This document shows positions 1 through 23,036 of a stretch of 50,614 nucleotides of DNA, piece after piece (the first letter of the stretch is position 1; every line of letters begins with the position of its first letter). The translations under genes and the position numbers were made by a program. The stretch comes from Pezizomycotina sp. ARF18 (taxonomy: Eukaryota; Ascomycota): the NCBI GenBank assembly GCA_002224055.1, contig AZLU01000176.1, forward strand, positions 1 to 50,614, in the 5' to 3' direction. The notes beneath the pieces are model-generated. The model worked only from the letters and a program-made list of their open reading frames with translations. It ran no database searches and was not told where the DNA came from.

Positions 1-143
1 ATTCCCTCATGGCCTATTCAAGCACCGTATTCTCTCTCTCCTACGCGTTCCGGCTCGTCGTCAAATCCGCGTCATAATGCATTCGACTCCGCAACGTCCA
101 GTTTCCGTCAACGCTGACAATTCCATCACTACCTCATAGTCCC

Positions 144-3118: not shown

Positions 3119-3833
3119 ATGATCCTAAGAGTCCAATAATTCTACTAGTAACGCTGGCGGTTCCGGTTTTCGCCAAGCACGCAATCGAGGTCCAATTACC
3201 AGCATGCCTTGGACTTGAATGCTGCCCTGAAAAGAGTATGAAATTCCCTCTCCGTCTCGGTTTGATCGACCCCGATCATTCGCCGAAGCTAACTTTGTTA
3301 ACGCATCTCCCAATAGATTTTGCTCCGGTTACGCTGATTGTTGTTTAGGGCTAAGTTGCCAGCGCTTAAGCCCTAACTCGGTTATTTACCAATGCCAACC
3401 GGCCCGACCGCAATAGAAATGCTCCTCGACTCCAGACCCGATAAACCGCGTAAGTTATTACTATAGCCAACTGCGATGGTATATATAAACGCTCGAGCTA
3501 ACACGGCTTTTAGGAATTTGTTCTCCTGGCTCCGACGAGGCTTGTTGCGACGGCTACGCATGTTCTTCTTTCCTTATCAATCAGCACACCGGCGGCCGAT
3601 GTGTTCCGCGTCGCAATGCTCTAGAAGCTCCGGTACGTCATCCCACCATGAAATTTCGACCATTCTTGGGCTTAGATAGAGATATAGCCCTCTGGTCGGT
3701 GGTATTTAAGGATGCAGATAGCTAACTCTTGTAACGGCCTTTAGAAAACTGTTCTTTTATCAAAGGTTGTTGTCCAGGGCTTGTTTGTAATGCTTCGGGA
3801 GACGGAAAGGCTGGGACATGCGAAGAGCAGTAA
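3119..3833 (+). CDS. K3: multi-unit secreted knottin-like protein with frameshifts
   Basis: The ATG at 3119 gives MILRVQ. One base out of frame follows the hydrophobic stretch ILLVTLAVPVFAKHA (a signal peptide), then PACLGLECC. Three further cysteine exons follow: 3317-3449 (FCSGYADCCLGLSC), 3514-3632 (ICSPGSDEACCDGYAC, then GGRC) and 3745-3833 (NCSFIKGCCPGLVC, then GTC, stop TAA 3831-3833). Introns have GT-AG ends and CTAAC branch sites just upstream. Exons should start and end in phase 1, but 3317-3449 is two bases short and 3514-3632 one base short of a multiple of three, which explains the apparent TAG near 3425. The same family as K4 and K5. Target and function unknown. Confidence 0.65.
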
Positions 3834-4387
3834 ACAATAGAACTGCTACGATACAATTTTCTCTCATTTAATTTCCCAAAGGCATATAAAATGATAGTTC
3901 CGTGATTACAGCTAATGAAAAAAAAGGGCATACCAATCTTGGTGCTAGTATTATTGATTTCCAGAGTGTGGTCTACCGCTATAAAGCTATGACATGAGCA
4001 CCTGAATAATCTACCATTAGGCTTCATCCAATATTTGCACCATTACTGAAGGAAGCGCAAAGAAATTCAAGGCGGCGTCTAGAAATATTCCCGGTACTCG
4101 AGGGAGTATTCCGGCCACAAGTGTTTCATTGGTTTAAGGCGCCGAGCCATTGAACCGCCGGGTAATAAATATGGGTTCCAGAAAACATCAAAGAACAGTG
4201 TACCAAGATTTAGATTTCAAACCAGCAATGAAATACTGTCAAAGCGCAGTCAACGTGGTTTATGCTTATCTGTTTCATGCAGCTTACTAATATAAAAATT
4301 CTCATTCTGATAGTGGGGCACTTGTATCTGCACAGGCTCTTTCCTGCACCGCCATCAGGTCTGCGAACTATAAATATATCGAGTAGC

Positions 4388-4398
4388 TATATAAAAGG
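4388..4398 (+). promoter_or_regulatory. TATA box of K4
   Basis: TATATAAAAGG lies about 95 bp upstream of the K4 start codon, with a second TATA-like motif just before it. This is the usual RNA polymerase II core promoter layout. Confidence 0.5.
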
Positions 4399-4492
4399 CA
4401 CAGCCCCGCCGCGATCTCATTATCTCACTAAAAATGAAGAGAAACTGTTTCCATTTTCAAAGCATAAACAACTTTACTAGACTTCAACCGCG

Positions 4493-5291
4493 ATGATTTT
4501 GATCACGACAGTACTAATTCCGATATATATACTACTCTGGCGGATAACCGTTACAGTTGCTGCTCCAAACCCAACGCCAACTACGCCTCTAAAACCGCGG
4601 TTTCCGGGCTGCACGGGGCCTGATGGATGCTGCAAGGCTAACAGTAAGTAGTCCTTACAAGAGCATAACAGGTCTCATACTTATGATAATTTGGACGAAG
4701 GCTAACTAGCAATTCTCTCACGAATGGTGGCATTCTTCCTAGATTTCTGCCATTTCTTTACAGATTGCTGCGAGGGCCTTTACTGCCAATCAACCGATCT
4801 GGACGGTCCCATAGCCTCATGCGCACCGCTTCCGGCACCTAGGCCTAGTTTATATTGTCAAAAGCTGGGCGACAAGACACGTAAGAAAAATAATTGCTTC
4901 CAGATATCGTCCTAGAATAAATACTAATAACATCCTCTTTCGCGTCTAGTTGACGGACTGACCAACGAACCCAGCAAATGTTCAGGCCAGGAAGACTGTT
5001 GTGAAGGAGGCGCATGCGTTCGCTATAAATACGGGCCGGGCATGAAAGGGACTAACTTCCAACATTGCGTACCGACCAAGACATGCCGACAAAAAGTCGT
5101 GAGTACTTCCTACAGGCAGCCTTTGACAAAGTCGTCTCGGCAAAGGTTTAGGCTAACGTTAGTATATATTTTTAGAATTCTGTGACTTAGAAAATGGCTG
5201 TTGTAGCCCGAGCATGTTTTGCAAGATTCAGTGGCAGTGGCCCGTGGGCAACGAACAGTTTATTCCAGTAGGGACATGTTCATATAATTAA
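4493..5291 (+). CDS. K4: four-exon secreted multi-knottin protein
   Basis: Exons 4493-4643, 4743-4880, 4950-5098 and 5176-5291. Exon 1 encodes a hydrophobic signal region (IPIYILLW), a Pro/Thr spacer and PGCTGPDGCC. Exon 2 reads FCHFFTDCCEGLYC and ends with an LYC. Exon 3 reads KCSGQEDCCEGGAC and ends with HC and a TC. Exon 4 reads FCDLENGCCSPSMFC and stops at 5289-5291. The last Cys of each exon is C1 of the next unit, so introns fall between C1 and C2, in phase 1. Frames join cleanly at the first two introns. Exon 3 is one base short (149 nt), beside an A5 run, so the last junction is off by one. Best explained as a single-base deletion. K5 is its inverted paralogue. Role unknown; likely an extracellular disulfide-rich protein. 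Confidence 0.75.
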
Positions 5292-5574
5292 TTATAGATA
5301 TCAGGAAATATCCTTCTTATGCGACTATCATAAGAAATACAGGCACCGATTCGGTGAGAGGGCCTGTGAAAAAATCTTCCACAGGATCTGATTAAATCGA
5401 ATATCTCGGAGTAAGCGTCTCACATAGAACGTTAACGGTTATATTGGTTTTTTAAGTTGCTTTATGGACTAAAGAGCTTCTAGAATAACTCCTGATAGTG
5501 ATGCGGGAGCTTGTGTTCCGCCAGGGTTGGTTATTTCAGAACCCTCTATTATATTTTGTGGCGCCACCTCAAAG
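5292..5574. other. Shared 3' intergenic region of K4 and K5
   Basis: About 280 bp between two convergent stop codons (K4 stop 5291, K5 stop 5575). No gene seen. It must contain both polyadenylation regions; I recognise no specific signal beyond AT-rich stretches. Confidence 0.5.
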
Positions 5575-6431
5575 TTAAGAATTGAGTGCGGGTACCCAGG
5601 GCTTCGGGTCCGATATACAGGTTCCAACCCATTGCTTCGCAGGTCCCACCAGCCACTTTGCTAGGCAGAACAGATTCGGGCAGCAACCCTCCCTCATAGT
5701 ACAGAGGTCTACATCATTCGTGGTTAGCACAGCATAAACTTTTAGAAACGCCGCAATTATTATTAGAATGAAAAAATATGAAGAGCGGGACTAACCTCCT
5801 TCCTTACGGCATCCTGGAGTCGGAACACACCTCCCCTCGATTCCGAATGGAGGCGCGATGTATGGGCGCAGAAGCCGCTACAGCAGTCTTCCTGCGTTTT
5901 GCACTCCATGCTATCATCCCAGGCTTCACAAAAAGTGATGTTAGCGTTTTTCTCTGGCCTATTTTCAATTTACAGCAATGGCTGACGTGACGTACTGGAG
6001 AAAGCGTTGAACCCATTGGCCGTGAGTAGCGGGATGCAATTCTTCTTCGGTTTCTTGAACTTTTGGCACTAGCTGACGAGCCGCTGAAATCTGATTGACA
6101 ATAAAGGCCTAGAAAGTGTTACTTAGAGGTCGTCCTTGTGACTGCAGATAGCCAAACGGATAGAGGGGCTGAACCTTTGCAGCAGTCCGTGTGTTGAAAA
6201 CAGATGTCTGGGGGGAATGAACGACCCTTTGTTAGTATGTCCAGATATACGTTATAAGAACACGAAGGGGGCAAAGCAGGATGAGGTTTCATACTAGGTT
6301 CGTAGCAACACCCGCCAGGTCCGGGACAACCCGGAAGGCGCTTGTACAAGGTGAAAGGCAGTGAACCTGGCTAGTGGCGACAAGAGCCGACATCGCCGAC
6401 AAGAGAAATATTTCAACGTCAAGTGATTCAT
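5575..6431 (-). CDS. K5: five-exon secreted multi-knottin protein, inverted paralogue of K4
   Basis: Exons on the minus strand: 6431-6251, 6207-6175, 6108-5996, 5923-5796, 5708-5575. Exon 1 opens MNHLTLK and, one base out of frame, continues IFLLSAMSALVATSQ (signal peptide), then LPGCPGPGGCC and PSC. Exon 2 is only 33 nt and reads ICFQHTDCCK. Exon 3 begins GLYCQSDFSG, matching GLYCQST of K4. Exon 4 reads ECKTQEDCCSGFC, and exon 5 LCTMREGCCPNLFC with a final TC and stop TAA. Lengths imply one missing base in each of exons 3 and 4 (exon 4 at a GGGG run) and about three missing bases or junction mismatches in exon 1. The tiny second exon implies an extra intron between C4 and C5 that K4 lacks. 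Function unknown. Confidence 0.7.
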
Positions 6432-7430
6432 TTCTGTCAAGCTATGGGTCTCTTACTGTTGTATGTGGATAATTCTTTCGGGAACAAAGCTTTGATAAAG
6501 ATCCTACTCGAAATATAAAAGCTGTTTCATTCATTTCTCCTGGTATAATGACTTCAGAGTCCTTTACCAAATTGATAGACTATTCTAACAAGCACATGCA
6601 AGTTTAACAGTCCAATATTCGATTGGACGTTGCTTCAAATCCATCAAAGTTGCTCTAACCTGATACTTACCAATTTCTATCACTACTTTAATGCCAGCGA
6701 AAATTGAGTCTTCGAACATATCGGTCTTATTAGTGCTAAAATGGCGTCTCACGCCTATAGCCTAGAGTACCATAATAAACCGAAATAGCACTGTAACTGG
6801 ATTCTACGGCGCTCGGGGGTCTGTCTGCTATCTCTTGGCTTCTCAGCTTCGCTGCATCTTCTCGGAAAAATGAAGGACTGGTTCTACGCGCTATCAGTAA
6901 ACCATGTTTCCAGTAAAATGATTTACACGAAAATAACGGGCGCGGAAACGGATAATGGTCGAAACAACAAAGAACGGGCTGTGATGGATTCTCGGATTCG
7001 CGATGCGTTTTGCCCTATAAGGCAGTAACAATGCAATAGTGCGGCGCCAGACAAAGCGCTAAGAAACAACGGGTTTCGCGACGCCGGTGAAACACACAAT
7101 TGAATTTACACCTTCCGACGGTTGAAAGGTCTTAGAAGCTCGTCTTAAGAATCCATCTCAGACAAGTTTATCAGATATTGTGTTATTGTGCAAGGCTGAC
7201 CCCTTATCTAACGGGTCTTCTACGGAACTATTCGTATACTATATAGTGACCGGTTCCCGTATCGTCACTCGCAATCTTAGTTTCCGCCTTCTTAAATTTT
7301 TCCTTGCCCGCCGGTAAAAAAGCATATCAATTCGTCATACCTCAGCGCTCTAGGACCCGCAGTACCATTCCCTAAAGCGATATAATCTCAACTTTCGCGT
7401 TCCACAAGTATTCGCTTTCATTTCTCAAAT
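6432..7430. other. Gene-free stretch between K5 and K6
   Basis: Contains the divergent promoters of K5 and K6. TATA-like motifs occur near 6511-6522 and 7243. No cysteine module, signal peptide or repeat was seen on either strand. Confidence 0.45.
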
Positions 7431-8318
7431 ATGACGCAATGGTCTGCATATATTCTTACTTGCAATCGCTGCGTCAGGTCTGGTAATGGGGTCACATTAA
7501 CTAAGAGGGATTGCATTCCTAAAGGGCTGATGGGTAAGTACTTCAAGATCTGTCGATGTTACTATGGATTGCTAACCAAAGTTGGGATCCCTAGATCACA
7601 ACAGGCAATGCAGTTCGGACTCGGATTGCTGTAATCACGGAAATGGCGATTGGAAAGGGATATGCCAGCCATTCAAGGAGAAGGGCGAGCAAATATACCA
7701 TTACTGTGTTCCCAGAAAGCAGTACACCTCCATATACTATCCCTGAGGCGGAACTAGACCCGGACCCGAAGAAGAGAAAAGAACAAGAAGAAAAGGATCA
7801 GAAGCCAATCTGCTCAGGGATGGGAAATGCAGCGCAAAGGATGGTGAGTATAGAAGCATCGGACTTTCCAAAATCTACTTGTTTTTCACTCCCGCTTTCA
7901 AAAATCCGTACATTTGAATGCGAATGCTGATACATTATTTTACGGGCTATAGAGGTTGCGGCCTTGGATTCCATGTTGCGACGATCTCATCTGCAGTACG
8001 ACTGGGCACGAACAGCGGTACATGTGTATTGCCCGCTGCAAAGGTCCGGAAAAGCATGTCGGACGAGGCAAGGAAACTTGCCAACGCAATCGTAATCTCC
8101 CTGATGTTTTCCCCGCGCAAGGCCGGGCAATAGTCCTTTTTCACATATATCTATCTTTCACTTCGGTATTGCGTTACACACGGTACATGCCGCGTTTGGA
8201 TTTTCCTGAAGGTTTTGGCTCGTTATTTCTAGCGCCGATACAGGGCTGTTTTATTACATGGGACCGGCGTTCTAGAGGTTTGATTTGCTTTGACTTAGAT
8301 CTAATACTATTTGGTTAG
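7431..8318 (+). CDS. K6: three-exon secreted knottin-like protein with frame breaks
   Basis: Exon 1 (7431-7533) starts ATG. A hydrophobic signal (HIFLLAIAASGLVMG) is read in a neighbouring frame, followed by a frame with RDCIPKGLM that supplies C1 and a phase-1 donor GGTAAGT. Exon 2 (7595-7843) joins in frame and reads QCSSDSDCC, GIC and HYC. It then has a TGA in the literal frame, while the next frame continues with a Lys/Glu-rich linker (KKRKEQEEKDQKP) to another Cys. Exon 3 (from about 7955) reads CGLG and, after a one-base shift, PCCDDLIC, MC, ARC and TC. The 3' end is uncertain: TAG at 8131 in one frame or 8316-8318 in the cysteine frame. At least three single-base breaks. Same family as K4. 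Confidence 0.6.
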
Positions 8319-8665
8319 GTTATATTTCCAATACCTACTTCTCCCGGAATAGAATGTCTCTGTATAAAACAAAGCTACAATATAATGCTTATGACTCGTG
8401 ACCTCAACAGACTATGATCCCTTTCATCGGATTACTCAAGTATTTATGATTGAAATGTCTCGTGAAACTGAAACTGGAGTATTTGAATCAAGTTCCGACA
8501 CTGTCCGTGTAACTCTCAATCTGTCGTATTGCCTTGGCTTGACAGATACAACGAATGGATGAACATAAAGATACAACAAAGGGTTGAAAATAAATAATTC
8601 CTCGCAAACTATCCAAACCGATTCATCAACTTCTCCATTGAAGACAAAACAATCATCTCGACATA

Positions 8666-9019
8666 ATGAAAATTTCGCTATACATTGTTATCGCCGGTTT
8701 GCACCTCGTCGCAGCTCAGAAGCCGCTTGCCGCACGGAAAACGGTAAGAAAGCTGCTGTCATTTCCGTACACTATAATCGGAATTTACCGTTCGGATAGA
8801 TTCTTGTTCTCACGGCAATTTAGTGATCTGCGTCACGAACTCGCAGTGCTGCGATGTCTCGTCTGTTTGAAGCATAATAACGTTTACGGGACATGCAAAA
8901 AACCTGCTGAAACATCTACGCCTCCGCCGCGAAGCCAACGGAAACTCCTTAAATGCCGACGGTTTCTAATCTGTGGTAGGAACCCTATAAACCCCTTTCA
9001 CTTTCCATCAGGATCCTAG
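8666..9019 (+). CDS. K7: secreted knottin-like peptide
   Basis: A clean signal peptide, MKISLYIVIAGLHLVAAQ, is followed by a GTAAGA donor after KPLAARKT. The next exon (about 8800-8975) reads SCSHGN, then CVTNSQCC and, one base later, CLVCLKHNN and GTC, with two more cysteines (LKC, LIC) before a GTAGGA donor. The CC-x4-C spacing returns if one G is missing at about 8854. A terminal FCSPSSDC near 9040 may be one more incomplete unit. The unspliced frame ends at TAG 9017-9019; the true end may be nearer 9100. Family membership is well supported, the exon structure less so. Confidence 0.55.
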   Translation: MKISLYIVIAGLHLVAAQKPLAARKTVRKLLSFPYTIIGIYRSDRFLFSRQFSDLRHELAVLRCLVCLKHNNVYGTCKKPAETSTPPPRSQRKLLKCRRFLICGRNPINPFHFPSGS

Positions 9020-9225
9020 GATTATAATAATGGAATCGACGTTTTGCAGCCCCAGTAGCGATTGCAGGAGGAATATACCTCGGTAACGGATATGGACATT
9101 AGATACTGCTAGCCTGAAATACTGTGAACGAAAATATCTAAGGAAGCGTTCTGTATAACTGGCGGTATTTGCTTCCACCTCAGCCATCTTATTGTCAGTT
9201 TCGTGAACAACTCATCTGCGTCTCC

Positions 9226-9425
9226 ATGTACTACAATATTTGGTTCTTACTCTTTGCGTACACATATAGCTTCACTCCTGCCATTCAGAAGCCGAGAATA
9301 TACTCACGAGCCTTTAGTAAACAAGATGCATTAGATAAATGTGTGTTTTTTTTTTTTGTTGCGGTGGAGCGATGGCTCCGCCTTGGCACCTCCGACAGCG
9401 GTTATTTCATTTAGCTTCCGCCTGA
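9226..9425 (+). pseudogene. K8: possible short knottin-like relic
   Basis: ATG at 9226 gives MYYNIWFLLFAYTYSFTPA, a good signal peptide, then a short propeptide ending DALDKC. A run of twelve T follows and then, in a different frame, CCGGAMAPP with a stop TGA near 9423-9425. The distance from DKC to CC is close to the usual C-x5-CC, but the T run makes the frame undecidable. No convincing C5 or C6. It could be chance plus a real signal peptide. Confidence 0.3.
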
Positions 9426-10520
9426 ATTAAGCTCTGCAGTTTGCGCCTTATAAAACAAGATATCTCAATTACCAATTTCCGCTGAAGTTCCCTCATCCGC
9501 CCTTGAGTGCTCTAAGGTGTTGTAAATCGCCATAGAAACGTATATCGAGAAACAAAGGCAGCTCTCGATAGTGCGGCCTTAGTAACGGCCATTCATCGAG
9601 GTACAGTCATTTCGAACATCATCAACGAAGGCAGTTTGTATTATTACCAAGAATAGACAACAGTACAATGGAAGCGCCGGGGAAGTCAAGAGAGCAACCG
9701 CCCGAGCTATAAATGCCACGCGAACTTCATGCCTAGAAACAAACCTCCGAAAACGAAACTTCTCGCGCGTTTAAGTGTAAGTATGGCAGTGCAAAATAAC
9801 ATGCCAGGACCTAAATAAGCATTCCAAATATACCAAAAATTTCAGGTGTTCGAGAACGACCAGAAAAATATTATTTTAAAATAAATTTCCAGCGGTAATC
9901 GGCCGTTTCGTGAGACCTCGCTTAAGGTGGGCTGGGGTATCCCTGCGTTATCAAACCGTAAGAGTAATCCTCCACTATTCCGCGGTAGCGCCCGGAACAC
10001 ATAACGGTTTGCTCCAGCTTCTATTCTAGTAGCTCCCCAACCCCAGCATTAGACCTCTAGAAGCAGTTATATATAGGTCGCCTGTTCGCTGTTGGAGCAA
10101 GATATCCAAAATTCGAGATGTTGCGAATAGCCGGACTAACACAACGTATCTTTCCCACATTTCAACTTCGACAATTTTGGCGCTTCCGGGTGAAGTGAGC
10201 ATCGAGTTTTCATCTTCACTATCAAGCCAACATGTTCGCCGGTCGACTTGTCACGCGCGCAACTTTCCAGAGCTGGCGCTTGGAAGTATAAACCAACTTC
10301 TAATTTGTTTAACGGTAAGTTTTCATCTGTCATTATTTCAATGACCACGATGGTGTTTCCGGTGTGGCTAATTGAATAGAATCATTATTTAAGAAACGAC
10401 ATCCAGCCTGTCGAGTCGTCCCACCTTCATCCTATCTCTATCCATTGAGACGATCTCGAGAATCAACGTATCGAAACTCCTGAGTATTAGTCCTTACCGG
10501 TCCACGACCTCCCACAATTT
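9426..10520. other. Gene-free stretch
   Basis: No supported gene. A weak CCKSP followed by a stop near 9515-9530 (+) resembles the end of a cysteine unit, but has no signal peptide or splice context. Otherwise nothing recognised. Confidence 0.4.
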
Positions 10521-10524
10521 TCAA

Positions 10525-10532
10525 TATAAATA
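10525..10532 (+). promoter_or_regulatory. TATA box of K9
   Basis: TATAAATA about 40 bp before the K9 ATG. A very short 5' leader is implied. Confidence 0.5.
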
Positions 10533-10566
10533 TAGCCCTTCTCCACGAATATATTTCTCGTACACA

Positions 10567-10825
10567 ATGCAATTCTCGACTTCTGTCATCCTTCTCGCAC
10601 TGGCTGCTTTGGTATCGGCGTCTCCGATCGGTCCGCGTGCGGCTTCTGCCGGTCTTGACCTTGCGCCTAGATCTTGCCATAAGAACGGGGGTAAGTCCAC
10701 ATCATTCCCCGTTGATGTCAGTACGTTACTAACTTAATTTACTCGATATAGCAACATGCTGGAGCAGTAAAGTTTGCTGTAGTGGAATCTGTGATTCCAT
10801 CTCCAGTAGTTGTACCAACCACTGA
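10567..10825 (+). CDS. K9: intact single-unit secreted knottin
   Basis: Exons 10567-10690 and 10752-10825, 65 residues, no breaks. Residues 1-18 (MQFSTSVILLALAALVSA) are a signal peptide, residues 19-35 or so a short propeptide, then the knottin: SCHKNG, intron, TCWSSKVCCSGIC and SSC. The cysteine pattern C-x6-C-x5-CC-x3-C-x6-C is the canonical six-cysteine inhibitor-cystine-knot arrangement. The 61-bp intron (GTAAGT...GATATAG) is phase 1 and falls between C1 and C2. Because it is intact, it is the reference for the unit in this cluster. Such folds serve as antimicrobial peptides, protease inhibitors, channel ligands or effectors; sequence alone does not say which applies here. Confidence 0.88.
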
Positions 10826-11087
10826 GTGTCCGCCTCTGCTAGATCAGTTGCCATCGAAGAAACGGTGCTATAACTTGCTTCCACGCTACCATGCGAGAAC
10901 TCCGAGCCTCGAGGCTGGAAATCTTCCTCATCGATTCGATTCGTCATCAACAATTTCTTTCGTCCTTTTTTCCTCCTCCTTCGACCCTTGTCATTCGTTT
11001 ACCTTTTCCTACGAGCATGGCCTCATCTTTCCTTCCAGGAGGTCGTCCATTTGTAATTTCCACCTTGGTTTATTCACTGGTTTGATA

Positions 11088-11252
11088 CCCTGTTTCCGGT
11101 CTGGAACTGCTAAAGGGCTGGTACCACTACCGGACTGGAACCCTTCTTCGTCTGGCACGACACTTAGTCAGGCACTATCTCAGTCTGGTACCGTCTTCGG
11201 TCTGGTACCATCAGTCTGGCACTTCGAGGGGTCTGGTACCATACACGTCTAC
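11088..11252 (+). repeat. Degenerate CTGGTACC minisatellite
   Basis: Within about 165 bp the motif CTGG(T/A/C)AC(C) recurs about eight to nine times at irregular 12-25 bp spacing (for example GGTCTGGTACC, GTCTGGCAC, GACTGGAAC). It lies outside recognised genes, downstream of K9. Origin unknown; degenerate tandem duplication fits. Confidence 0.55.
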
Positions 11253-12241
11253 CGTTTGTCCGCGACTTCATTGGTATGACATCATATTGCGGCTTGACCG
11301 CTAGTTATCATATCTTGCTACTCTCTCCATACCTGTATATGCTTTTCGTCTATTCAGGATATTTCACCTGTTAATTATTGCTACCAAAATGCCCGTGGGA
11401 ACGCCCATCACTAATACCCCTGCTTTATCGCCCTTTTGCTGTATTCTATAATCATTACCTTCCTTGCTCGTTTAGTGTATTTTAAAATAGTTGCAATATA
11501 TAAAATCCCTTTCATACCTTGAACGCTCTTGTAGGATGTATGGTTGCTAGTGAACGTACAGTCCCATGATACACCGGATTGCTACAAAGCGTATATCCGC
11601 GGATGAGCTATGTAAAATCCGTCCGATTAGGCTTTCATTTATAATTATACCGTGCGACTTGCAACGTCAATATCTGGGTAGCCGACCCAGATACTGAACA
11701 GTGTCCCTACGAAACGCCAGAAGAGAACCTTCTTGCCGTGACATTTAAAGTCCTCTCTGGCCCAAAGGAATGCCTCTACATCGCGAACATATGACCACCC
11801 TCTTCAAATTTGTATACCCGTTTCTGATTGTAAATCCAAAGATCCAACTCGATCTTCACACTGTGCTCCGCAAAGATTGTGTTTCATTAACGATATCCTG
11901 AACGGAGTGCGATTTTAGGACCGTGATAATGGATTCGCGAGGGGACATCCTTTGGAGTCTGCAAAAGCTCCGCCCAGCTCGCTAAAAAAAAAAAAAAAAA
12001 AACCGAGAAAATATTAAAGCACGGACGGAATTATAAGAAGCGTGCATAGCGTCAACTTCGAAACGCAGCTTCGCGACTTTCCCTCCTCCAAAATTCCTTT
12101 AACTCTTCACCACAAACAATCGTCAATCAAATCCCTTTAACGCTAAAAAAAAAAAAAATCCCTAACAAGCTCTTTTATCAACGTACAAAAAAATACTTCT
12201 TCAAAGGCTTCCAAAGCATTTCCAATAAGCATCTATTCAAA
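11253..12241. other. Gene-free stretch upstream of K10
   Basis: No gene seen. It contains an A run of about 18 nt near 11984 and other short A runs near 12146. A TATA-like motif (TATATAAAAT) near 11495 is too far from K10 to assign. Confidence 0.45.
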
Positions 12242-13067
12242 ATGAAGGCTACTATGTCCCTCTCCCTGTTTGGGTCCTCGCAAGCTTCCATAGTGCGGTT
12301 GGCAAGCCAGTCGTTGGTCCGAATATCAATTGCGTTCAGGCTGGTAGTAAGTACTTCTCCATCTCTTCCGCTTCACAGCATCGTGATCAAGCTGGCGAGC
12401 CTTAATCGATCAGCTTCCACGGCTTCCGTGGAAACTGCTTCTTATGTTCAAGCTCTGCTCCCCTCCCCACCCCTCGCAATCTGCTTGCCGTTTGGTTCTT
12501 CACGTCCTTCCTCATTATTTCTAGACATTGACCCTCCGTCATCGCTCCAACTCTCCTGTTACATACTAACGCTCTTCCATCTTTTCGCCTTCCGTAGGTG
12601 TCCAACGTTGCGACATCGCGCACCCTTGCTGTTCGGGGTACATCTGCAGCCCCATTAAGGAAGACGGTAAACTCGGCGCTTTCGGCCACTGCATGATCAG
12701 GGCCGGGCAGCCAACGCTTCCGGCGGCGGCCCCAACCCCACCATCCAGTCTCCCGAACACGAAGACGCCGAGTCCGTCCGCAACCCCACCATCCAACACG
12801 CGAAATATATTTTTAACTCGGGTTCCAAGCACGTCACTAAGAGGGCCGACGACAAGCACGTCACCATCCAAGATCCCGAGGACGCCGACATCGATGTCCA
12901 CAAGAGGGGTGTTGAGAAGAGGTGCAAGGGCAACGGGGGTAATATTTATCTCGTTTTCTTCCTTGGTTGATGAATGCTGACGTTGATGTCTTGTAGCTTT
13001 GTGCTGGTCCGACCGCGATTGTTGCGGGTTCTGCAACTTGATCTCGAACAGCTGCGTTGCTCATTAG
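12242..13067 (+). CDS. K10: two-knottin precursor with Kex2-type sites
   Basis: Exons 12242-12346, 12598-12938 and 12997-13067. Exon 1 starts MKATMSLSLF and, one base out of frame at a GGG run, continues VLASFHSAVGKPVVG (signal peptide) to an NCVQA that supplies C1. Exon 2 reads RCDIAHPCCSGYIC and GHC (long-loop unit). After another missing base at GGG a linker follows with repeats of PTIQ and three Lys-Arg sites ending at about 12844, 12907 and 12922. The last site directly precedes CKGNG. Exon 3 completes the second, short-loop unit: LCWSDRDCCGFC and NSC, stop TAG 13065-13067. Both introns sit between C1 and C2 in phase 1. Kex2 would release the C-terminal knottin starting at its first cysteine (inference). 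Exons 1 and 2 are each one base short. Confidence 0.72.
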
Positions 13068-13730
13068 GCTGACTACTGTCCTCTAGTACATCACGGAAGT
13101 TGGATCATGAAGATGGGGAGGTGATTTTAACAAAAGGATTAAAAAAAAAAAAAAAATTTTTTTCGAATTCTCTTTTTTTGTTCCGTGGCTTTTTCAAACA
13201 TTTCGTTTATAACGGGTTTATGAAATTAAAAAATTGGGAATATTCATGTACACATCTTTTTTAAAACGGAGTTTCGTCTTTTTTAAAAATTGCCCTGGAA
13301 GAGCAAATCGAGGTTAGCAAATAGTTGATCGTTCATACTACCAATCAAAAATTATAATTTGAAAGTATTCATTTAAAGGCACAGCAAGTCCCGTACCCAT
13401 CGTGAAGCTATAAATATCAATCATCTAATGTTCTATCAGGAGACTGTGATATTATCTGACGTCGCATGGTGAGCTATATACAAGGACCAGGGCGAGCCAG
13501 TTAATACATCCCAGCTGCCGTGGGTCAATCCTTACCGTTCGGCTCTCCCCAGGAAGACAAGGATTTCAATAACAGGCATTGGAGTGATATTGCATGTCAG
13601 CTTACTATTCATATCATCTCGATCAACTACGTCAGAATAAAAGCATCATTCGATGAACGAATGTCATGGAAGTTCGTTTAGTGTGCGGTCCCGAATGGGA
13701 AATACAATCTCACCTGGCTACTAGTATAAA
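13068..13730. other. AT-rich intergenic stretch
   Basis: Contains A and T runs near 13140-13165 and no recognised gene. Confidence 0.5.
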
Positions 13731-13733
13731 ACC

Positions 13734-13740
13734 TTCCCTT
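13734..13740 (+). promoter_or_regulatory. TATA box of K11
   Basis: TATAAAA about 120 bp upstream of the K11 start codon, followed by a pyrimidine-rich leader. Confidence 0.45.
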
Positions 13741-13858
13741 TCTCTCGTTCTAGGAGAGAGAATATCGCAAATATCAACTATACTACAACCGTTCAAGACA
13801 ATCACAAACAAGATACACTCTCGCTTCCACCAACTTCTCCAAAACCTCTACATCCGCA

Positions 13859-14131
13859 ATGAAGCTTTCCCTATACATCACCATCATCGCCTCGACGCTC
13901 GGGATAACTGCCCTTGCCGCTCCCCAAAGCTGTCTCTGGCTGCTCGGTAGGTTTTCCCCTTCCATTCCTTTACCAAAACGGTTTTCCGTTTTTTTCAGAT
14001 AGATTAACCGATGAATGATATACTTTCATATAGGGGCCTGCAACAAAGACAAGGATTGCTGCGGGACATTTAAGTGCTACAAGCACAATAATTATGGCCC
14101 GGTGTTTGCATTAGGCCTGGCGGCCACTTGA
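13859..14131 (+). CDS. K11: single-unit secreted knottin
   Basis: Exons 13859-13946 and 14034-14131. MKLSLYITIIASTLGITALA is the signal peptide. C1 is in QSCLWLLG, the phase-1 intron follows, then ACNKDKDCCGTFKC. The literal frame runs on to a TGA at 14129-14131 without C6. One base later the next frame has GVCIRPGG, which supplies C6 at a plausible distance, and then stays open to 14382. A single missing base in the CCC run at about 14098 would restore C6 but leave the end of the protein uncertain. Spacing C-x6-C-x5-CC-x4-C agrees with K9. Function unknown. Confidence 0.72.
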
Positions 14132-14399
14132 GGAAGAAAGAATTATTTCCTAGGGAAACGTACGGAGATCTATCACCCGTCACGGACAAGTCTGCAATCG
14201 AGATAATTGGGGTCTTGAAACAACAAAAATGGCCTTTTCATATCTCATACTCGTACTGTTTGCAGCCTAATCAACAGAAAGTCGATCTAATCTACAACTA
14301 TACGAACTTCACATCAACGGATATCTGTCCGTTAACAAACTGCATTGTATTCACTAGTAAAGACGTAATACTTAATTTCTAAAACGAGATAGCTTAATA

Positions 14400-15228
14400 A
14401 AAAATATATTGGCAGGTTTAGAAAGAGCAAAACGTTTTGAAAGAACCGGTTCTGGTGGTCCTAGGCTTGTGCAACCATACTATATATATATGGCGCGTTG
14501 AAAACGTCTGTGTCGGGTTGGGAACTAGTGCAAGCGTGTTAGCAACGGTAGCATATGTTGGCCTCTACGTGAAATTAAGCATTTACTCGGTATAAAATGT
14601 TCCAAGCCCAAAATCGGATGTTGATTTTTCACGGACGAGAGGGAAGGACCCCTTCCGGTTTACGATGAATTGATGAAGCGGTGTGGAATGTGGTTTATCA
14701 CTAAATAAATACTTGGTAGATACTCCAAGCCTTTCCAGATAGCACCTCCGCGTATGGTATGGCGCAATGTAAGATCAGCGGGTCGGCTTGCAAGTGGAGC
14801 ATTTCTCAGACCTGGTTACGGCGATGTAATGCCATGAGCTAGCTTATCTAGGTTTTAATGATACATTCGTATCAGTGAGTGATCTGTGGAGTGAAATTCG
14901 CTCGCGGGTTATCAACGGTCTAAGCTAATACCAACCGATATTGATTCTGGGAGCTATCCAGGTACTTGGGGCTCGAAAAAGTATTGGGACTCCGTTCTCG
15001 GTCTGCTCGTATTGCAATCTCTCCTGTGCCTATAGAAAATACGTGACCGAGTACAGATACGTATCCTCATCGGAGCATTGCGACATTTCCTAAGTATGTC
15101 GACAATATCTCTCTGGATCCTTCACTCATCACTACTCACCGCAGTCACATTCCATTCAGTCCTACTCATCTATTTGCCCTACCCACACAGCAAGCCTTAC
15201 AAAGTTTCCTGCGAAAATCATAGCCAAC
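14400..15228. other. Gene-free stretch between K11 and K12
   Basis: No coding potential recognised. A short (TA)n lies near 14482-14490. It contains the 5' region of K12. Confidence 0.45.
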
Positions 15229-15997
15229 ATGAACTTCATCCTTGTTGCCCTCCTATCCGCGGTGTCGTCTCCGCTTCCCCGGGCTCCAAAGCCAGAAGAT
15301 TTCGTTTCTTGAAAGAAGTGACCCGTTGCCATATTCCCGGAGGCAAGTCGAAATATAGCTACATATAAATTCGCCGAATATCTAACTCCAGAACCCTCTA
15401 TTCGCCAGAACCCTGCGATCACGCCTCACAATGCTGTCCTGGACCTCCTGTGATATTAATGCTTACGAATGTAAGCCTGACTTCAGCATCAAGAAGATGT
15501 GCCATATTCCTGGAGGTAAGTTTTCAAACAAAAAAAAATCTTTTTCAACATCACGACACAAAATCGCGATACTACTACGACTGCTCAACTTCACAGAGCC
15601 TTGTGATAGGGGAAACCAGTGTTGCCCGGCCTAGGCTGTGATTTGATGCGTACGAATGTGTTCCGGAGCGAGAGCTTCTTCGGAAGAAGGTTAAGACCTC
15701 CGGCTGTCATATTCCTGGCGGTAAGTCGATTTTTCCGTTTTTTCGGCCTCCACGTAAGATGCTAAATCTTGAGTATTATGCGGAGCCTTGCGATAGGAAC
15801 GGGCAATGTTGCACAGGCAGGTGCGTTTGTCGACGTATCAGTGCGCGCCGTGGAGCGGTGATGAGGATAGTTTTAGCCAGAGATTTGGCCTCAGCAGGCT
15901 TCTGGCCTTGCGAGGATCCGTGCGCAGAGGAACTGAGCTAGTTATCCCAAATGGGAGGGAGAAGCATGAAGAAGCAGGAAGAGCTTGGATAGCTTGA
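15229..15997 (+). pseudogene. K12: CHIPGG-type multi-knottin gene, damaged
   Basis: Exons 15229-15342, 15409-15515, 15597-15720 and about 15784-15997. Exon 1 has a signal peptide (MNFILVALLSA) and, after a shift, KEVTRCHIPGG. Exon 2 reads EPCDHASQCC, SCDINAYEC and MCHIPGG. Exon 3 reads EPCDRGNQCC, AYEC and GCHIPGG. Exon 4 reads EPCDRNGQCC and STYQC with a long tail to TGA 15995-15997. Each knottin is CHIPGG, intron, EPC-x5-CC-x3-C-x6-C. Exon lengths imply one missing base in exons 1 and 2 and two in exon 3. Two substitutions also hit splice sites: the exon 1 donor is GCAAGT (a usable GC donor), and the exon 4 acceptor position reads GG, not AG. Probably a decaying copy of the K13 type. Confidence 0.7.
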
Positions 15998-16637
15998 AGA
16001 GCTTGAGAAAAGTATTTTTGGAAGGTTTTGAGTAAATGAGTATGAAGAAAAGCTTTTTCGTAGTATTAAAATTATAGATTCTCTAAAGAATCTCAGAACA
16101 ACAACTCGATATATAACTGCTCGATGTTTGAAAGGGCATCCTAGGAGCTTATAGTTACCAATCGTTCTTTACTTAGCAATAAAAAAATACATTCCTTATA
16201 AAATGAAATTTCCCACCACTATGCCATAAAGAATAAGGCGCCATATCACGCAAGATTTCAATCGCAGCTCGTTCAGTCTCTATTTACTCTCGAGATCAGG
16301 TCTTGCTCTCTATCTTCATCATTATGAGGACAATCAACCGATTAAGGGAACAAGACCCCTGACGGTATTATCAACGGTCATCTGACAAGGGCAGATGACA
16401 CGGACTGACTTTTCGATATATACTTGCAAATATTACGGCTAGTTAATCGGAATATGCGGTCGTTGTATCTGGAGAGACAAATTTACTCCCGGTCTAACAA
16501 AGAAAATGTCGCCTATTTATATAACGCCTTGAATAGGATAGGAATTTCTGCTGTAAATCAATACTAGTAATTGTTAAAATATGGCTACGAGATAACGCAA
16601 TAAGGGTTAACGTGGGCACCACCCTGCGAGCCACCAC
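15998..16637. other. Gene-free stretch downstream of K12
   Basis: No gene seen. AT-rich, leading into the inverted-repeat element at 16638. Confidence 0.45.
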
Positions 16638-17099
16638 CTACCAGCGAGCCAGTCAAAAAACACACCAAAAATTAATAAAATGCTATAATTTTTAACTCGA
16701 CAAACGACAGTATAATTTTTATATAAAGCAACTATATACTAAATAAGCCTTAATATTAAGAATATTAAATAAAACTAAGTAGTACCAGCGAATTTCATTG
16801 CGTAATCGACAATTATTATAAAAATTTGATATATAAACGATACTTTAAAAAATTATAAAAATTTAAATCCGCCCGAAAATTTCTAAAATTTAAATATGTC
16901 GTAATTATAGTTTTATATATTCGTAGTTTTTCGTTTTCGTGATGTTTAGATGAGTGATTGTTGAGTTATTCGTCGTTGTTATTTGTTTATATTTTGGTGA
17001 AAATATAATTGAAGTTTGAGTTGTGGTTGTCTGGTTTGTCGGCTTTTCGGCGTGATTTTTCTTGACATTGGTCTTGGCATTGAATTGGCTCGCTGGTAG
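16638..17099. mobile_element. Possible MITE with 14-bp terminal inverted repeats
   Basis: CTACCAGCGAGCCA at 16638-16651 is repeated as its exact reverse complement TGGCTCGCTGGTAG at 17086-17099, enclosing about 460 bp of very AT-rich, non-coding DNA. The left end is preceded by a related GCGAGCCACC copy. I see no clear target-site duplication and no transposase, so the element would be non-autonomous. It sits between the convergent K12 and K13. An exact 14-bp inverted match flanking a compositionally distinct segment is unlikely by chance, but superfamily cannot be assigned. Confidence 0.5.
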
Positions 17100-18573
17100 T
17101 TTCGATTCAAATACCTTGATTCCGTAAATAATGATTATTATTGCATTGATTTGTGTTAAATTGTTCGCGAATGGGGTATCCTTTCCGATATCCGATTAAC
17201 GAAATCAAATCATTATCGCTCGTGCTTTGGGTGGTGGGGTGCGGGGAGTGAGGATACGCTTGGCGCCGGCTCGGGGTGTTCGCAGAATATATCGCCGTTG
17301 TGCGGTACTTTTTACGGTGACTTGGTGGCCACACGCTTGTATATAGCTTCCATAGCTTCCATTTATATTCCGCATTGTGCTCAATAAAGTTTTTTTTGTA
17401 TATTTTCAGCAGCTTGCTAAGTTGGGGGGTCATCTGCAAAGGAATAGGGTTCGATTACGATTAATATTACTCACTAAACATTGCGTAAAAGATTATTCCT
17501 GTAAGAATTGTAAAATATTCGATTGTGTTGATTGAGGGATCGAGGATTTAGACGTACATAGAATAGTATCCCACAAGTACTTGAATCATATACTATTGAT
17601 TTATTATCACGAGTTATAAGCTTCTAACCAGTATAAATGTTCGTCTCCGCAACTCGGTGTATTCAGGAATCACGAAACTTTAGTCACGGAGTTCGTTTTC
17701 ATTAGAACCTTCCAATATGGCCATTCTGAAATTGTGTTGAACACAGTTAATAATATTTTGGATGGGAGGTGGGAAGATACCAGCCAGCTGACTTTCGGTG
17801 GTTCAGTCGGGGGAAAATGGGGGTGCAAGACTTGATACTTGCCGCTATCTACCGCATCTTTATTCATATATATTAAAGATCGAGAACAGTGACGATATTA
17901 TATATCAGTAAAAAAAAAAAAAAAAAAAAAGGAGGATCGATGAATGCACTATAACACCGATCGTATGTATAGAAGTGTGGATCGATTTTGTGTGAGTTGT
18001 GAAATGATAGATCTCTTTAATCGCCCGCACTTTCTTTCACAGCGGAGGCTGTATCCCAACATACTATCTGAATATTGCGTGATTTTTTAGCGCAGCGGGG
18101 ATCCGTCATGTTCACCGGTATATAAAGGAATGTAAGGAACGACTTTGTTTTTTAACGCTATGAAAGAGTGGATAGTTAAGTTACATATCGAAAAACATGA
18201 GTGGATAAATTTTTGCTATCTTCTTTTTCTTCTCATATTACTTCCGTGCCTACTCAGATTAATCGAATTCCACAATAACAATACGAGACCTATTCGATAA
18301 GCTTCTCAGCTTTGTTGTTCGTGTAGCTATTGGTCATCATGTTGTTGCATTGCGGAACTTTCGCAGAGGATCCGTCTTTCACTGAAAATTACAAATATTC
18401 ACTGCTTTGGAAAATAAACATGACCCGTTAACGTCTCCTGGTTTTCGAGAGGGACTATATAGGAAGTGTTACCCTTACCCTGGACGCGGAACTTCTTAAT
18501 GTCTATCTCTTCGAGCAGAATGTTAGTTAGGGTTATAATGGCTCGACCGTGTACTTCTTCAAACCCCGGTCAA
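17100..18573. other. Gene-free stretch between MITE and K13
   Basis: Long open frames on the minus strand (17107-17439) have no recognisable domain and AT-biased composition. An A run of about 21 nt lies at 17910-17930. No gene supported. Confidence 0.45.
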
Positions 18574-19464
18574 CTATAAATTTTTTACAACCTCAGAGGA
18601 AGACTTGCCGCTCGACTTGAGACCAGAGGACCCATCACATTGGTATTTGGATAAATTGCACCGCCCATTACAGCACTGGTCATTTCGATCGCAGGGTTCT
18701 GTCAAATAAGCGTTAGAAAAGGGATTAATCATATGCAGAAATCTGTGCGCTCACCCCCCGGAATATGGCAGGCTCTGAGGAACGCCCTGCTAGCCTTGCT
18801 CAAGTCCCGGAAATCTTTGCACTCATAGTTACTTCCACAGCTCCCGGAGCAGCACTGGTCGTTGCGGTCGCATGGTTCTGATGAAGAACAGTCTCATTAG
18901 CATTTTTTCATCCTCAGAAAACAAGGAGCGTAACAGAGGTTTTCGAGATTTACCTCCAGGAATATGGCAAGAATTGGACTTGAATTTTAGGACATCGGAG
19001 GGGCCCTTGCACTGGTATTTGGACGTGTCACAGGAATTACTGCAGCATTGATCGTTACGGTCGCAAGGTTCTACGGGAAAACGTGTGTTAGTCGAACTGA
19101 CGACGTAGGAGGTGTTTCGCGATGTCCACTTACCGCCGGGAATATGGCAGGCCCGCAGCTTGAAAAAGTCTTCATCGTCGCTTCTTTCGCACTGGTATTC
19201 ATTCAGATTACATTTTAATCCAGACAGCACTGATCATTGCGATCACAGGGCTCTGGAAAAAGGAGAATCAAAACATCAGTCTGGTGGTGCTGAAATGGCA
19301 AGACAAAAAAAGAGTTTCCTAGGAGGAAAAGGACTATATTTTGGCAAACCTCCGGGAATATGGCAGGCTACCATAGCCTTCCAGAACTTGATCGTCGCAG
19401 AGCTTGTGCGAGGAGCTGCGGAGACGACAGCTGCGCAGAAGATGGCAATGGTAAGAAACTTCAT
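18574..19464 (-). CDS. K13: CHIPGG-type four-knottin secreted protein
   Basis: Exons on the minus strand: 19464-19350, 19252-19134, 19070-18954, 18877-18755, 18698-18574, about 199 residues. Exon 1: signal peptide MKFLTIAIFCAAVVSA, then VACHIPGG. Exons 2-5 each begin EPCDRNDQCC. Exons 3 and 4 are intact (CCSNSC and KYQC; CCSGSC and NYEC) and end in CHIPGG. Exon 5 reads CCNGRC and KYQC and ends in a Ser-rich tail and TAG. Each knottin is formed by CHIPGG of one exon plus EPC...C of the next: C-x7-C-x5-CC-x3-C-x5/6-C. All introns are phase 1 (56-97 bp, GT-AG). Exon 2 is 119 nt, one base short, giving an apparent stop after CCLD. The best example of a module-per-exon array here. Function unknown. 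Confidence 0.82.
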
Positions 19465-19610
19465 GTTGTGGGCTTTTGAGGTATAATGTTAAAGAAATAT
19501 TTCGATTACTGATTGTTATAAGAGTTTTGGATTCAGGAATTAAGATTGTATGAATTGCGAAGCCAATGATTGCTGTCTAAAGGATTGGGACGAAGAGAGG
19601 GAGACCGTCG

Positions 19611-19622
19611 GCCTTTTATAGA
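19611..19622 (-). promoter_or_regulatory. TATA box of K13
   Basis: On the minus strand TCTATAAAAGGC lies about 150 bp upstream of the K13 ATG. Confidence 0.5.
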
Positions 19623-22375
19623 CACACTTGTCTCGCTTTTCTAGAGCTTGCTTCGACATCGCACAAACGTTACTCAATGACATCAAGTTTGGGTGACTGG
19701 TTTTCGAACGGAAAAGGAGTAGAAAGAACATGCTCTACTCCGAGAAGAACGTAAAAGACCAAGTATCACTCGCATTGTCGTCATGTTCACTTCTACTGTT
19801 TGCGCTGGAAGCGATACTACCAGGCCGCGCTAGACCTTGATCTCTTCCGAACGAAATGAAAGCATTCAGCTTTTTCCAAACAAATAGCTATTGAGTACTG
19901 GTCTCACTACCAATACTAGTATGTTTTAGTATTTGTTTTCTCATTGATCTGGAGTTCAACATTCTCATGTCGATTGGGTAATTTCCCGCACGGCCGCAGG
20001 GATGAATACCTCCCCACTTCCAGGTTTTCACGGGGTAAGATGCACGGAATCCCTTGATTCCGGGGCTTAAATGCAAGGTGAGTAGCTGGGAGATCTGTAA
20101 AATTGGACTTTAAAGGCGAGGGCATCCATCTGGTAATGCGTTATCGGAAAAGCAGGATGAGCGAATTTAAAGCTTATACTAATCAGACTAGTGACACGAA
20201 AAAACCGGGGACGAGCAGCTCAGCCAAGTTATAATTGGCCCATGCGGCGCATAAAAATAACCTCCGACGCACAATGATCGATTAAATTCCCCGACGGGGA
20301 CGGTCCGCAGCGCCGCCGATCGACATCATGGAACCCCCACTAAGCTTATCTTGGAGGCTTGCTTGGAATGTGTCCAAATCCATATGGGGAAATATAGGAA
20401 TCGAATCCAGCTTCGTTCCCCTAGGTTGTAGAGGCCTAAAGTGGTCATCAGCTGCAGGTAAACCAATTGAAAGACAGGATAGGAAAATTTGTTTCTCAAC
20501 TTGCGCGATTTAAGACCAATTGACAAGCAAGCACATGGAGATCCTCGCGTTAGCGCAGAAAATGCATGTTTCAATGGCAGTACCAGCGCAAGAAACTTGA
20601 AAATTGAGGTTTGACAGCGGTCACATTGGTGCGGAGAAATTTTCTGAATGGTCGAAAGCAGAAGGAGAACGGTAGGTCAAAACACATAAAGGAAATAAAG
20701 GATTTAGTTTCATGCAGGAGCATATAAACTTACAGGAGCAACGAGCAAACGACGAGTGCAAAGTCTCTCCACAAATATCTCGAATTGACAGAGGTCAATG
20801 TTGAAAGGGAACGAGAACCGCTTGCTGTGCGACACATGCGTAGTTATGATTGGCTCTGGCCCGTCCGATAATGCATTCCCATCGGGACCGATCGTGCATT
20901 GATCAAACTTATTCCTTGTCCCTGTTCTATCAAGCCAGCGCATATTAACGATGTCACGATGCAGGAAGATGTCCCAGCTTCAGCGGCAATACGCTACTCT
21001 GGGTTAAATATATTAAAGAGCATATTCAGGCCTTTATTAGCTTGTGCATCTCGAACTCCGTTACTCTCGGGCTGCGTGTTACCCTTAGTGCCACATGTGC
21101 TGAAGGGAAAACGAGCTCGAATAGTGTGGGGAAATCAATCCGGAGTTATTATGGTCAAGTGAAGAACCACGAAATGAACGGAATAGGCGATGGATACCCC
21201 TCAATATTCTCCCCCTAAGCTAAATTTCGTTCTCTCGGGTTTCCTCCTTCAATGTTATATTAAGTATTAACCCAATCTAGGTATCAGAAGACCCATCTCA
21301 ATCCAGGAATAGCGTGAGTAACAACTCGTACTCTATTTTAACTTAGCAACTATCTTTCCCGCTTTCCATAGTTAGGTTTGGTATCAGAACCGTCCAATCA
21401 TTTTGCTCGACGCGAACTTAGCTACAGCACCATAACACGAATCCACGATCGCAGGATCAGTTCATGACAAGTAACTGCCCTGTTATAGTCCATGATAACC
21501 CCGACAATGTAGATCCTCATGCCTACTAAGCTTCGCTACAAGGGATACGAAGGAGGGTGTCATCTCCGTCGGCCTTTTGAGCCCGTTCTCGAAGCCCCAC
21601 GTCTTCATTGCCTGTCCTACATCTCTTGAACGTGGTTGAGCTTTTACGAAACGTTCTCGTGCAAGCTTCCGTTATTTCGCGTGGTTTTGAAAACCAAATC
21701 GCTATAGGTATTTACTGGTTGTTTATCACAAGAACTTCCCCAATACTTTACTGTTACAATTACTATTACGGTGGTAACTACTGGAATGCATGCGGAACAA
21801 CGACTACAACAACTACCATGACGGCAACAGCTACTGGAAGTACAGGTGGAATAATAACTACTTACCATAAGTTTCCAGTGGGACCACAATTGGGTGAAGC
21901 TATTTTAAAATATATCTGGAAAGAAACCCCCGTGAAAATATCAAAGTTAACCTTGGAAGTTTATAAGAATATTTATCATGATTTTGAAACCTAATCCGCG
22001 AAGCAAGCGCGTGTTAAATGGAAACAAGGGAGTCTTGTAGTAAGAATTTCCCTTAAATTTCCCTTGGAAGACGGCTTCGTCCGGGAACTATATACTGCTA
22101 CCATGCCTTCGCAATGAAAATTTTCCGAGCAGGTATCAACAAAGATCGTTCTGCTAAAAAGCTAGCAGAGGCATGGTGTATTTCAGAATGACCCGGGGGA
22201 ACCGGAGAAGCAGTCTGCACCAAAACTTCATGCATCTCCCTTGTATAAAATAAGCCGGAAGAGGAAAATGGTCTACACCTGTGCTAAGCACATTATTGGA
22301 CATGGGAATGAACTACTTTCGTATATTAATTATTAATCATTCTACTAGCTTGATAATGAAGTTTCGAAACCTGTC
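19623..22375. other. Long gene-poor stretch between K13 and K14
   Basis: No supported gene. An open frame at 21608-21994 (+) with Tyr- and Thr-rich low-complexity segments lacks an ATG start and a signal peptide, so I do not call it. Nothing else recognised on either strand. Confidence 0.45.
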
Positions 22376-22911
22376 CTAAAATACAAACAAAATAGTCGCT
22401 GAAAGTTTATGATTGGATTGATTCGCCGGGGAAATTTTCCTACGCCGAAGATTTCCTGCAGAACTTGAGGAACCTTGCTTCACCGCCGACGGGGTGCACT
22501 TCCAGCCTTGATCAGAGCAGCAGTCAGAGTTGGATTGACATCGGCCTAGGAAACGTAAGATGTTTGTTAGTTCCTTATTTCGTTTTATATTTCCCCTTTC
22601 ATCGGTCGGAGTTTGACTTACGGTTTGCCGACTCGCAGACAGTTTGCTTCTTTGGCTGGCACCACCTCCACCAGCGAGCTTCGCCGCCGCGGGCTTCACA
22701 TATGAAACTAGCGCAGCAGTCTTGGTCAAGGGAGCAGGGAGCTATTTTCGGCGGTACCATATCAGCGGGTGTCCTATCTATCGGAAATCTAGTTTGGGCT
22801 TGAACTACCTTTTTCTAAAGCGCATACTGTTGGCGGAGTTGTATCGGCGATAGCGATCGCGTTGACGGTAGCCGCAACGGCGAGAAGAACGAGGGAGGCC
22901 GATAACTTCAT
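22376..22911 (-). CDS. K14: two-unit secreted knottin protein
   Basis: Exons on the minus strand: 22911-22809, 22741-22622, 22545-22376. Exon 1: signal peptide MKLSASLVLLAVAATVNA, then VCALEK (C1). Exon 2: PCSLDQDCCASFIC, RWC (C6) and TVC (C1 of unit 2). Exon 3: RCQSNSDCC and GWKC. All three exons join in frame through phase-1 introns between C1 and C2, without a break. In the literal frame exon 3 runs to TAG 22376-22378 and lacks C6. One base later, after a GG, the next frame gives FLKFCRKSSA and TAG at 22440-22442, supplying C6, so the true stop is probably there. Unit 1 is of the long C5-C6 type (12 residues), as in K4. Confidence 0.8.
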
Positions 22912-23036
22912 GGTTTAGCAATCTTGAGTTATATAATTGGGTTGAAGTTAGTAGGGACGAAGGGATGAATATCGATGAGTGAGATGTGCTCTGATCAGAA
23001 TATTCAACGTAACAACATTCGGACGACGCCAGTCCA

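Follow-up and report, generated by a model that had tools for sequence, protein, structure and literature searches.

Knottin-like units of Pezizomycotina sp. ARF18 with a candidate phase-1 intron at a conserved position between the first and second cysteines

Knottins are recognised by six cysteines in the order C-C-CC-C-C, spaced within the customary limits of an inhibitor cystine knot (ICK). Among fungi, the Fungi1 knottin family is expanded in Histoplasma and its relatives and includes members from Blastomyces as well as Cladosporium Avr9 (PMC4503680). Knottin-like effector candidates are also described from Venturia (PMC9632046), in a source whose consulted sections, like those of a paper on multi-domain cysteine-rich proteins (PMC6262176), hold no intron data on knottins. 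In the ICK peptide genes of Nasonia and Apis, a phase-0 intron upstream of the second cysteine is conserved (PMC2853521), the albumin 1b knottins of Medicago form an expanded family with one intron, located in the signal peptide (PMC4785745), and the spider Hc1a subfamily encodes the whole mature peptide in one exon, its bivalency arising by intra-exonic duplication (PMC13172734). Shared intron position has helped to unite the CSEP effector candidates of barley powdery mildew (PMC3582587). Here we describe knottin-like units of the ascomycete Pezizomycotina sp. ARF18 (assembly GCA_002224055.1; 46.4 Mb in 408 contigs), most of which carry a candidate phase-1 intron in the loop between the first and second cysteines (C1 and C2). 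The window, which is the whole stretch of DNA analysed, comprises bases 1-50614 (50,614 nucleotides) of the 88,921-base contig C176 (AZLU01000176.1).

The candidate intron in loop 1

A scan of bases 1-23000 for C-x(4-7)-CC gave 39 matches, 11 of which (1442-, 3205, 4610, 5755-, 6328-, 9342, 18322, 19556, 21453-, 21826- and 21844-) were discarded as non-knottin cores. The remaining 28 knottin-like units, on both strands, make up the knottin island (1..23000). Gene numbers (K) were assigned from the coordinates of an earlier note on this DNA, which had proposed one phase-1 intron in the C1-C2 loop of nearly every unit. Junctions were measured from the cysteines, the arrangement being the C1 codon plus 13 nt, the intron, and 5 nt plus the C2 codon. 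Counted from the first base of the C1 codon, the donor thus lies 16 bases on; the acceptor AG is followed by 5 bases and then the C2 codon, and in the usual loop 1 of six residues the fifth codon is split after its first base (phase 1). Within the range covered by the earlier note, donor and acceptor are both phase 1 in 12 of 13 units and lie at identical nucleotides in 11 of 13, which bears out the proposal, and the intron counts given for K9 (one), K10 (two), K11 (one), K13 (four) and K14 (two) were recovered. The junction falls between C1 and C2, so that the exon boundary does differ from the domain boundary, as had been stated.

Over the whole island an AG at -5 was found in 21/28 units, all of them YAG as read by eye from the flanks, and in none of the discarded matches. 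Both junctions are exact in 16/28 units and phase 1 on both sides in 19/28; the difference is made up by units 4979, 7609 and 12609, with a displaced junction or a longer loop. Among 40 unit matches from the window and eight further loci, the offset of AG before C2 peaks at 5 (22 matches), other offsets from 0 to 30 having at most 4 each. A scan with a strict donor returned 10 exact units in bases 1-23000 and none in any of 200 dinucleotide shuffles; elsewhere it returned one, in L024, and nothing in 23001-50614, in the remainder of the contig (L028-L031) or in L025-L027. C..CC matches outside the island have AG at -5 in 6/30 cases (YAG in 2), versus 21/28 inside it. Because the units are related, these counts measure conservation and not independent events. 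The units barely align, mean column identity being 18% across 20 pieces, of which one was badly cut. Common descent of poorly aligning units, which the earlier note had drawn from intron phase, is nonetheless well supported, by the conserved phase and, more strongly, by the conserved nucleotide position.

The candidate introns, 56-251 bases long with a median of 76 (n = 20), carry fungal-type signals. With the third K12 intron set aside, CTAAC stands at the right distance in 11/19 introns against 42/1213 YAG sites in the same DNA, and CTRAY in 16/19 against 128/1213. Weak donors among the counted introns are GTTTGC, GTAGTT, GTATGA, GTTAGT, GTAATA and the GC donor GCAAGT. From these signals, splicing at the junctions is predicted.

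K9 (10567..10822, + strand) is a single knottin in two exons with a signal-like start, C1 lying in exon 1 and C2-C6 in exon 2; its phase-1 intron of 61 nt (10691..10751, GTAAGT..ATAG, CTAAC) is exact. In K10 (12243-13067, +) the first phase-1 intron (12347..12597, 251 nt, GTAAGT..GTAG, CTAAC) combines the usual donor with a displaced acceptor in a loop of 8, and in the assembly C1 and the upstream ATG are in different frames; the second (12939..12996, 58 nt, phase 1, GTAATA..GTAG, CTGAC) is exact. So is the 87-nt phase-1 intron of K11 (gene 13860-14130, +; intron 13947..14033, GTAGGT..ATAG). K13 (19465-18574, -) has four phase-1 introns, at 19253..19349 (97 nt, weak donor GTTTGC), 19071..19133 (63 nt, GTAAGT..GTAG, CTAAC), 18878..18953 (76 nt, GTAAAT..TCAG, CTAAT) and 18699..18754 (56 nt, GTGAGC..ACAG, CTAAC), and K14 (22911-22480, -) has two, at 22742..22808 (67 nt, donor GTAGTT) and 22546..22621 (76 nt, GTAAGT..CTAG, CTAAC).

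For K12 (15230-15880, +) the earlier claim holds for two of three introns, phase 1 on both sides: the first (15343..15408, 66 nt, GCAAGT..CCAG, CTAAC) is of GC-AG type, and no branch motif was found in the second (15516..15596, 81 nt, GTAAGT..ACAG). The third (15721..15783, +) has a phase-1 donor, but GG replaces the acceptor AG and it is without a branch motif. This segment, its acceptor lost, is open for 21 codons without a stop and may be a retained intron. The claim for K4/K5 (4494-5290, +) likewise stands in part. The first K4 intron (4644..4742, 99 nt, phase 1) is exact provided that the leading Cys of a CC pair is counted as C1, and the second (4881..4949, 69 nt) is phase 1 in a longer loop, but the K5 intron (5099..5175, +) is ambiguous, with a phase-1 acceptor, a best donor at 5099 in phase 0 and a weak phase-1 donor 4 nt on, at 5103. 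The discarded matches 3205, 4610 and 6328(-) are the first-exon C..CC motif of K3, K4 and K6, just 5' of the intron, where the assignment of C1 is ambiguous.

Further phase-1 introns outside the range of the note are the last of K3 (3633..3744, +, 112 nt) and the last of K6 (5709..5795, -, 87 nt, donor GTTAGT), both exact; the first of K6 (6208..6294, -, 87 nt, donor GTATGA), with a CC pair as in K4; that of K7 (7534..7594, +, 61 nt), in a loop of 11; and the exact one of K8 (8744..8823, +, 80 nt), both exons of which are frameshifted as assembled.

A protein search of the same genome gave distant matches on contigs C62, C302 and C32. The array on C302 opens with a signal-like exon that ends in C1; it has an AG at -5 in 3/3 units (YAG in unit 1, AAG in units 2 and 3) and exact donors in 2/3, the third being one base short and hence phase 0. 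Since this array has the same layout, the intron arrangement is not private to one cluster. On C62 there is a single core, without AG at -5 and with no C1 seen, and the C..CC repeats on C32 (L026) are of a different layout, with AG at -5 in 3/16 matches and YAG in none.

Internal exons and the growth of the arrays

Internal exons hold C2-C6 of one knottin and C1 of the next in K13, K12, K14 and K4, as the earlier note had described, and in the C302 array as well. In K13 they measure 117 nt (18954..19070, -, 1-1), 123 nt (18755..18877, -, 1-1) and 119 nt (19134..19252, -, frameshifted as assembled), and in K14 120 nt (22622..22741, -, 1-1). With phase 1 in most units, the internal exon is 1-1 symmetrical and could be duplicated in frame. 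Both ends are phase 1 in 10/12 measured internal exons; a phase-0 donor ends the third of K4, where phase 1 is reached only through the weak alternative donor, and the third of C302.

Relationships among units were examined on cysteine-masked protein pieces from 23 of 31 units (island and C302), omitting 2448, 5903-, 6202-, 8829, three of K12 and 19247-. Masked scores within K13 (three of its four units) are 41-51, and those within C302 are 38, 26 and 5, the mean between arrays being -2.7; for three within-array pairs tested in K13 and C302, the score was reached by 0/1000 shuffles each. Within K1, K3, K4, K10 and K14 the scores are only -12 to 5.5. The proposal that 1-1 exons explain array growth is thus supported for K13 and C302, in which units are similar, but is weaker as a general account, since within K1, K3, K4, K10 and K14 units are no more similar than between arrays. 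Intron similarity was dropped as a sign of recent duplication, its z-scores probably reflecting shared splice ends.

The account that we consider likely starts from one two-exon ancestor with a phase-1 intron in loop 1, followed by copying, fusion and, in K13 and C302, 1-1 exon duplication, with whole copying or shuffling elsewhere. Exon 1 of this ancestor would have encoded a signal peptide, a propeptide and C1, and exon 2 C2-C6, the intron splitting the codon of the fifth loop-1 residue in phase 1, at the position and with the splice signals observed today. The gene would then have been copied, in both orientations, into the present island of 23 kb and also to one or more other contigs; of this, the layout is seen today and the order of events is presumed. 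Since a two-exon ancestor has no internal exon, the first doubling calls for fusion of two copies rather than exon duplication; arrays would have begun in this way, with an internal exon of C2-C6, linker and C1. Being 1-1, that exon could thereafter be duplicated in frame, and the similarity of their units suggests that K13 and C302 probably grew so, other arrays having been copied whole or shuffled. Splicing at each junction would complete one cystine knot.

Several observations weigh against this account. The full pattern is missing from 9/28 units: 673, 3519 and 5181 have a phase-1 acceptor with a best donor in phase 0, no donor was identified for 145 and 400, the phase-1 donor of 3321 faces an acceptor off by one base, 15789 has no acceptor, and 2448 gave no clear junctions. 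Unit 5903(-) is apparently intronless in loop 1, a single open stretch spanning both C1 and C2. As assembled, 8 of the 12 internal exons measured have lengths not divisible by three. Units 2 and 3 of C302 give the lowest of its scores, and its third donor is phase 0. Cysteine-masked DNA separates the arrays modestly (within 0.683, otherwise 0.654, K12-K13 0.713), a difference reached by 34/2000 label permutations. The introns are not convincingly alignable, so that duplication break points cannot be placed. Finally, no relatives outside this genome were found at the thresholds set in one protein database of limited sensitivity, with bacterial, viral, phage and plasmid collections left out.

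The rival that survives best has the arrays arise through one gene fusion after another, together with the copying of whole arrays; the 1-1 exons would then be a side effect of the intron that all units have in common, and we regard this as a possible if somewhat unlikely reading. In its favour, the units of K1, K3, K4, K10 and K14 are no more alike within than between arrays, and some units find their closest counterparts in other arrays: K10 unit 2 in K9 (score reached by 3/1000 shuffles), K4 unit 3 in K6 unit 3 (4/1000) and K1 unit 2 in K11 (2/1000), while K3 unit 1 with K4 unit 1 gives 10/1000. These cross-array pairs were chosen as the best of 253 and are leads only. The units of K13 and two of the three C302 pairs are, however, much more alike than units of different arrays. 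Within the ancestral-gene account favoured above, the copying of whole arrays, together with fusion or shuffling, probably contributed as well.

That the island is largely decayed, its arrays for the most part pseudogenes and its intron pattern a relic, seems to us unlikely. The out-of-frame internal exons speak for such decay, as does K12, whose ATG frame contains a stop (by eye) and which has exons of 107 and 124 nt, a lost acceptor and two introns without a branch motif; the frameshifts were indeed first read as pseudogene decay. However, the HSP70 gene on contig C49 (53036-54818) is broken into seven pieces and changes frame six times over 1783 bases, computed by arithmetic on the printed coordinates, with model positions contiguous or nearly so. 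Matches to Cpn60/TCP1 are fragmented too (33 pieces), introns there not being excluded, and K9, K11, K13 and K14 have retained their cysteines and splice sites well. The HSP70 control made assembly indels the better general account: they look common, and with HSP70 frameshifted in the same assembly, sequence error is the likely source of the out-of-frame internal exons, so that pseudogene claims from this assembly need care. Phase is for the same reason best taken locally from the nearest cysteine, as was done here, and the one-base-short donors of 673, 5181 and C302 unit 3 may themselves be assembly indels. Duplication "without frame damage", as the earlier note had put it, cannot be read from the sequence as assembled: only 4 of the 12 internal exons measured have a length divisible by three (5 with the alternative donor), and HSP70 too is frameshifted here.

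Nearly every acceptor opens C2-C6 and nearly every donor closes with C1 in the same phase, so that exon skipping or joining would still give whole knottins, some of them combining C1 of one unit with C2-C6 of another. That the arrays serve as a combinatorial splicing device for secreted peptides is nevertheless, in our estimate, quite improbable. Least probable of all, and hardly credible, is parallel gain by separate knottin genes in a loop that tolerates or attracts insertion, as the poorly aligning introns and the displaced junctions in three loops (4979, 7609, 12609) might suggest, because the same nucleotide is used in 16/28 units and in 2/3 on C302 and the flanking exon bases, by eye, show no common proto-splice motif.

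Predicted products, database searches and setting

The pattern C-x6-C-x5-CC-x3..4-C-xn-C, which has the cysteine spacing of an ICK, was read in K9, K10 unit 2, K13 units 2-4, K14 unit 1 and C302 unit 1; an in-frame C6 was not seen in K11, K14 unit 2 or C302 unit 2. Searches of unspliced pieces gave no match to Pfam knottin families over the curated cut-off, the best being Toxin_12 at 20.5 bits (cut-off 21; window 3489-3722) and Toxin_21 at 18.5 (21; 18732-18893). As these toxin matches lie below cut-off, no target is claimed. A search of solved structures gave one weak match (2mxm, E 0.094). Homologue searches with a K13 open stretch (which crosses an intron), a nine-row alignment and a C302 piece gave no match at the thresholds set, and searches of the same genome with the K9 and K4 cores found nothing outside the window. 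The products are probably secreted small disulfide-rich peptides. A KR site precedes C1 of K10 unit 2 (by eye) and another lies just after C1 in the C302 first exon, and some peptides are perhaps released by Kex2-like cleavage at KR.

K12 (15230-15880) and K13 (18574-19465) form an inverted pair about 2.7 kb apart, flanking an A+T-rich stretch (36% G+C at 16-18 kb); CHIPGG ends and a CD-x3-QCC core are common to the two, in opposite orientation. Degenerate repeats with a CTGGTACC-like motif lie 3' of K9 (window 11080-11260, by eye). An ankyrin-repeat stretch occupies window 34228-35043 and, like the short GT-AG introns, agrees with a filamentous fungus as the source; the adjoining open stretches at 31913-33125 gave no Pfam match. 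On C32, L026 4643-6485 is a gene with many C-x5-CC blocks and weak matches to Dickkopf_N and Toxin_12 below cut-off; two of its repeats lie within one open frame (L026 4643-4903), and there are several frames as assembled.

Comparison with known systems

Fast divergence often makes the ancestry of short cysteine-rich secreted proteins impossible to trace; an intron whose site is constant to the nucleotide is a descent marker that outlasts sequence similarity. Its position makes the origin of fungal knottins testable across genomes, and the family offers multi-knottin genes with an intron within each knot. The Avr9 gene also has an intron.

The Fungi1 knottins resemble the present family in being small secreted fungal proteins of six-cysteine knot spacing and in their expansion, but the parts of that account consulted mention neither intron position nor multi-unit arrays (PMC4503680). 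Insect ICK genes likewise have a conserved intron 5' of the second cysteine; theirs, however, is phase 0 and animal, and arrays are not mentioned in the sections consulted (PMC2853521). The Hc1a toxins are also multi-knottin proteins of an expanded gene family, yet their mature peptide is uninterrupted, whereas here an intron lies inside each knot (PMC13172734). Medicago albumin 1b is comparable as an expanded knottin family with one intron, which lies in the signal peptide and not in loop 1 (PMC4785745). For the CSEP proteins, as here, intron position was used to infer a single origin of diverged secreted proteins, although their fold is ribonuclease-like (PMC3582587).

In the parts of the knottin literature consulted, we met neither a fungal knottin whose gene has this intron nor 1-1 arrays out of register with the domain. 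Symmetrical 1-1 modules, internal exons between phase-1 introns, are reportedly the units of exon shuffling described by Patthy; the internal exons described here are similarly flanked by phase-1 introns, but they are out of register with the domain. As far as the literature examined goes, the logic of the finding is already known, and this case of it is new.

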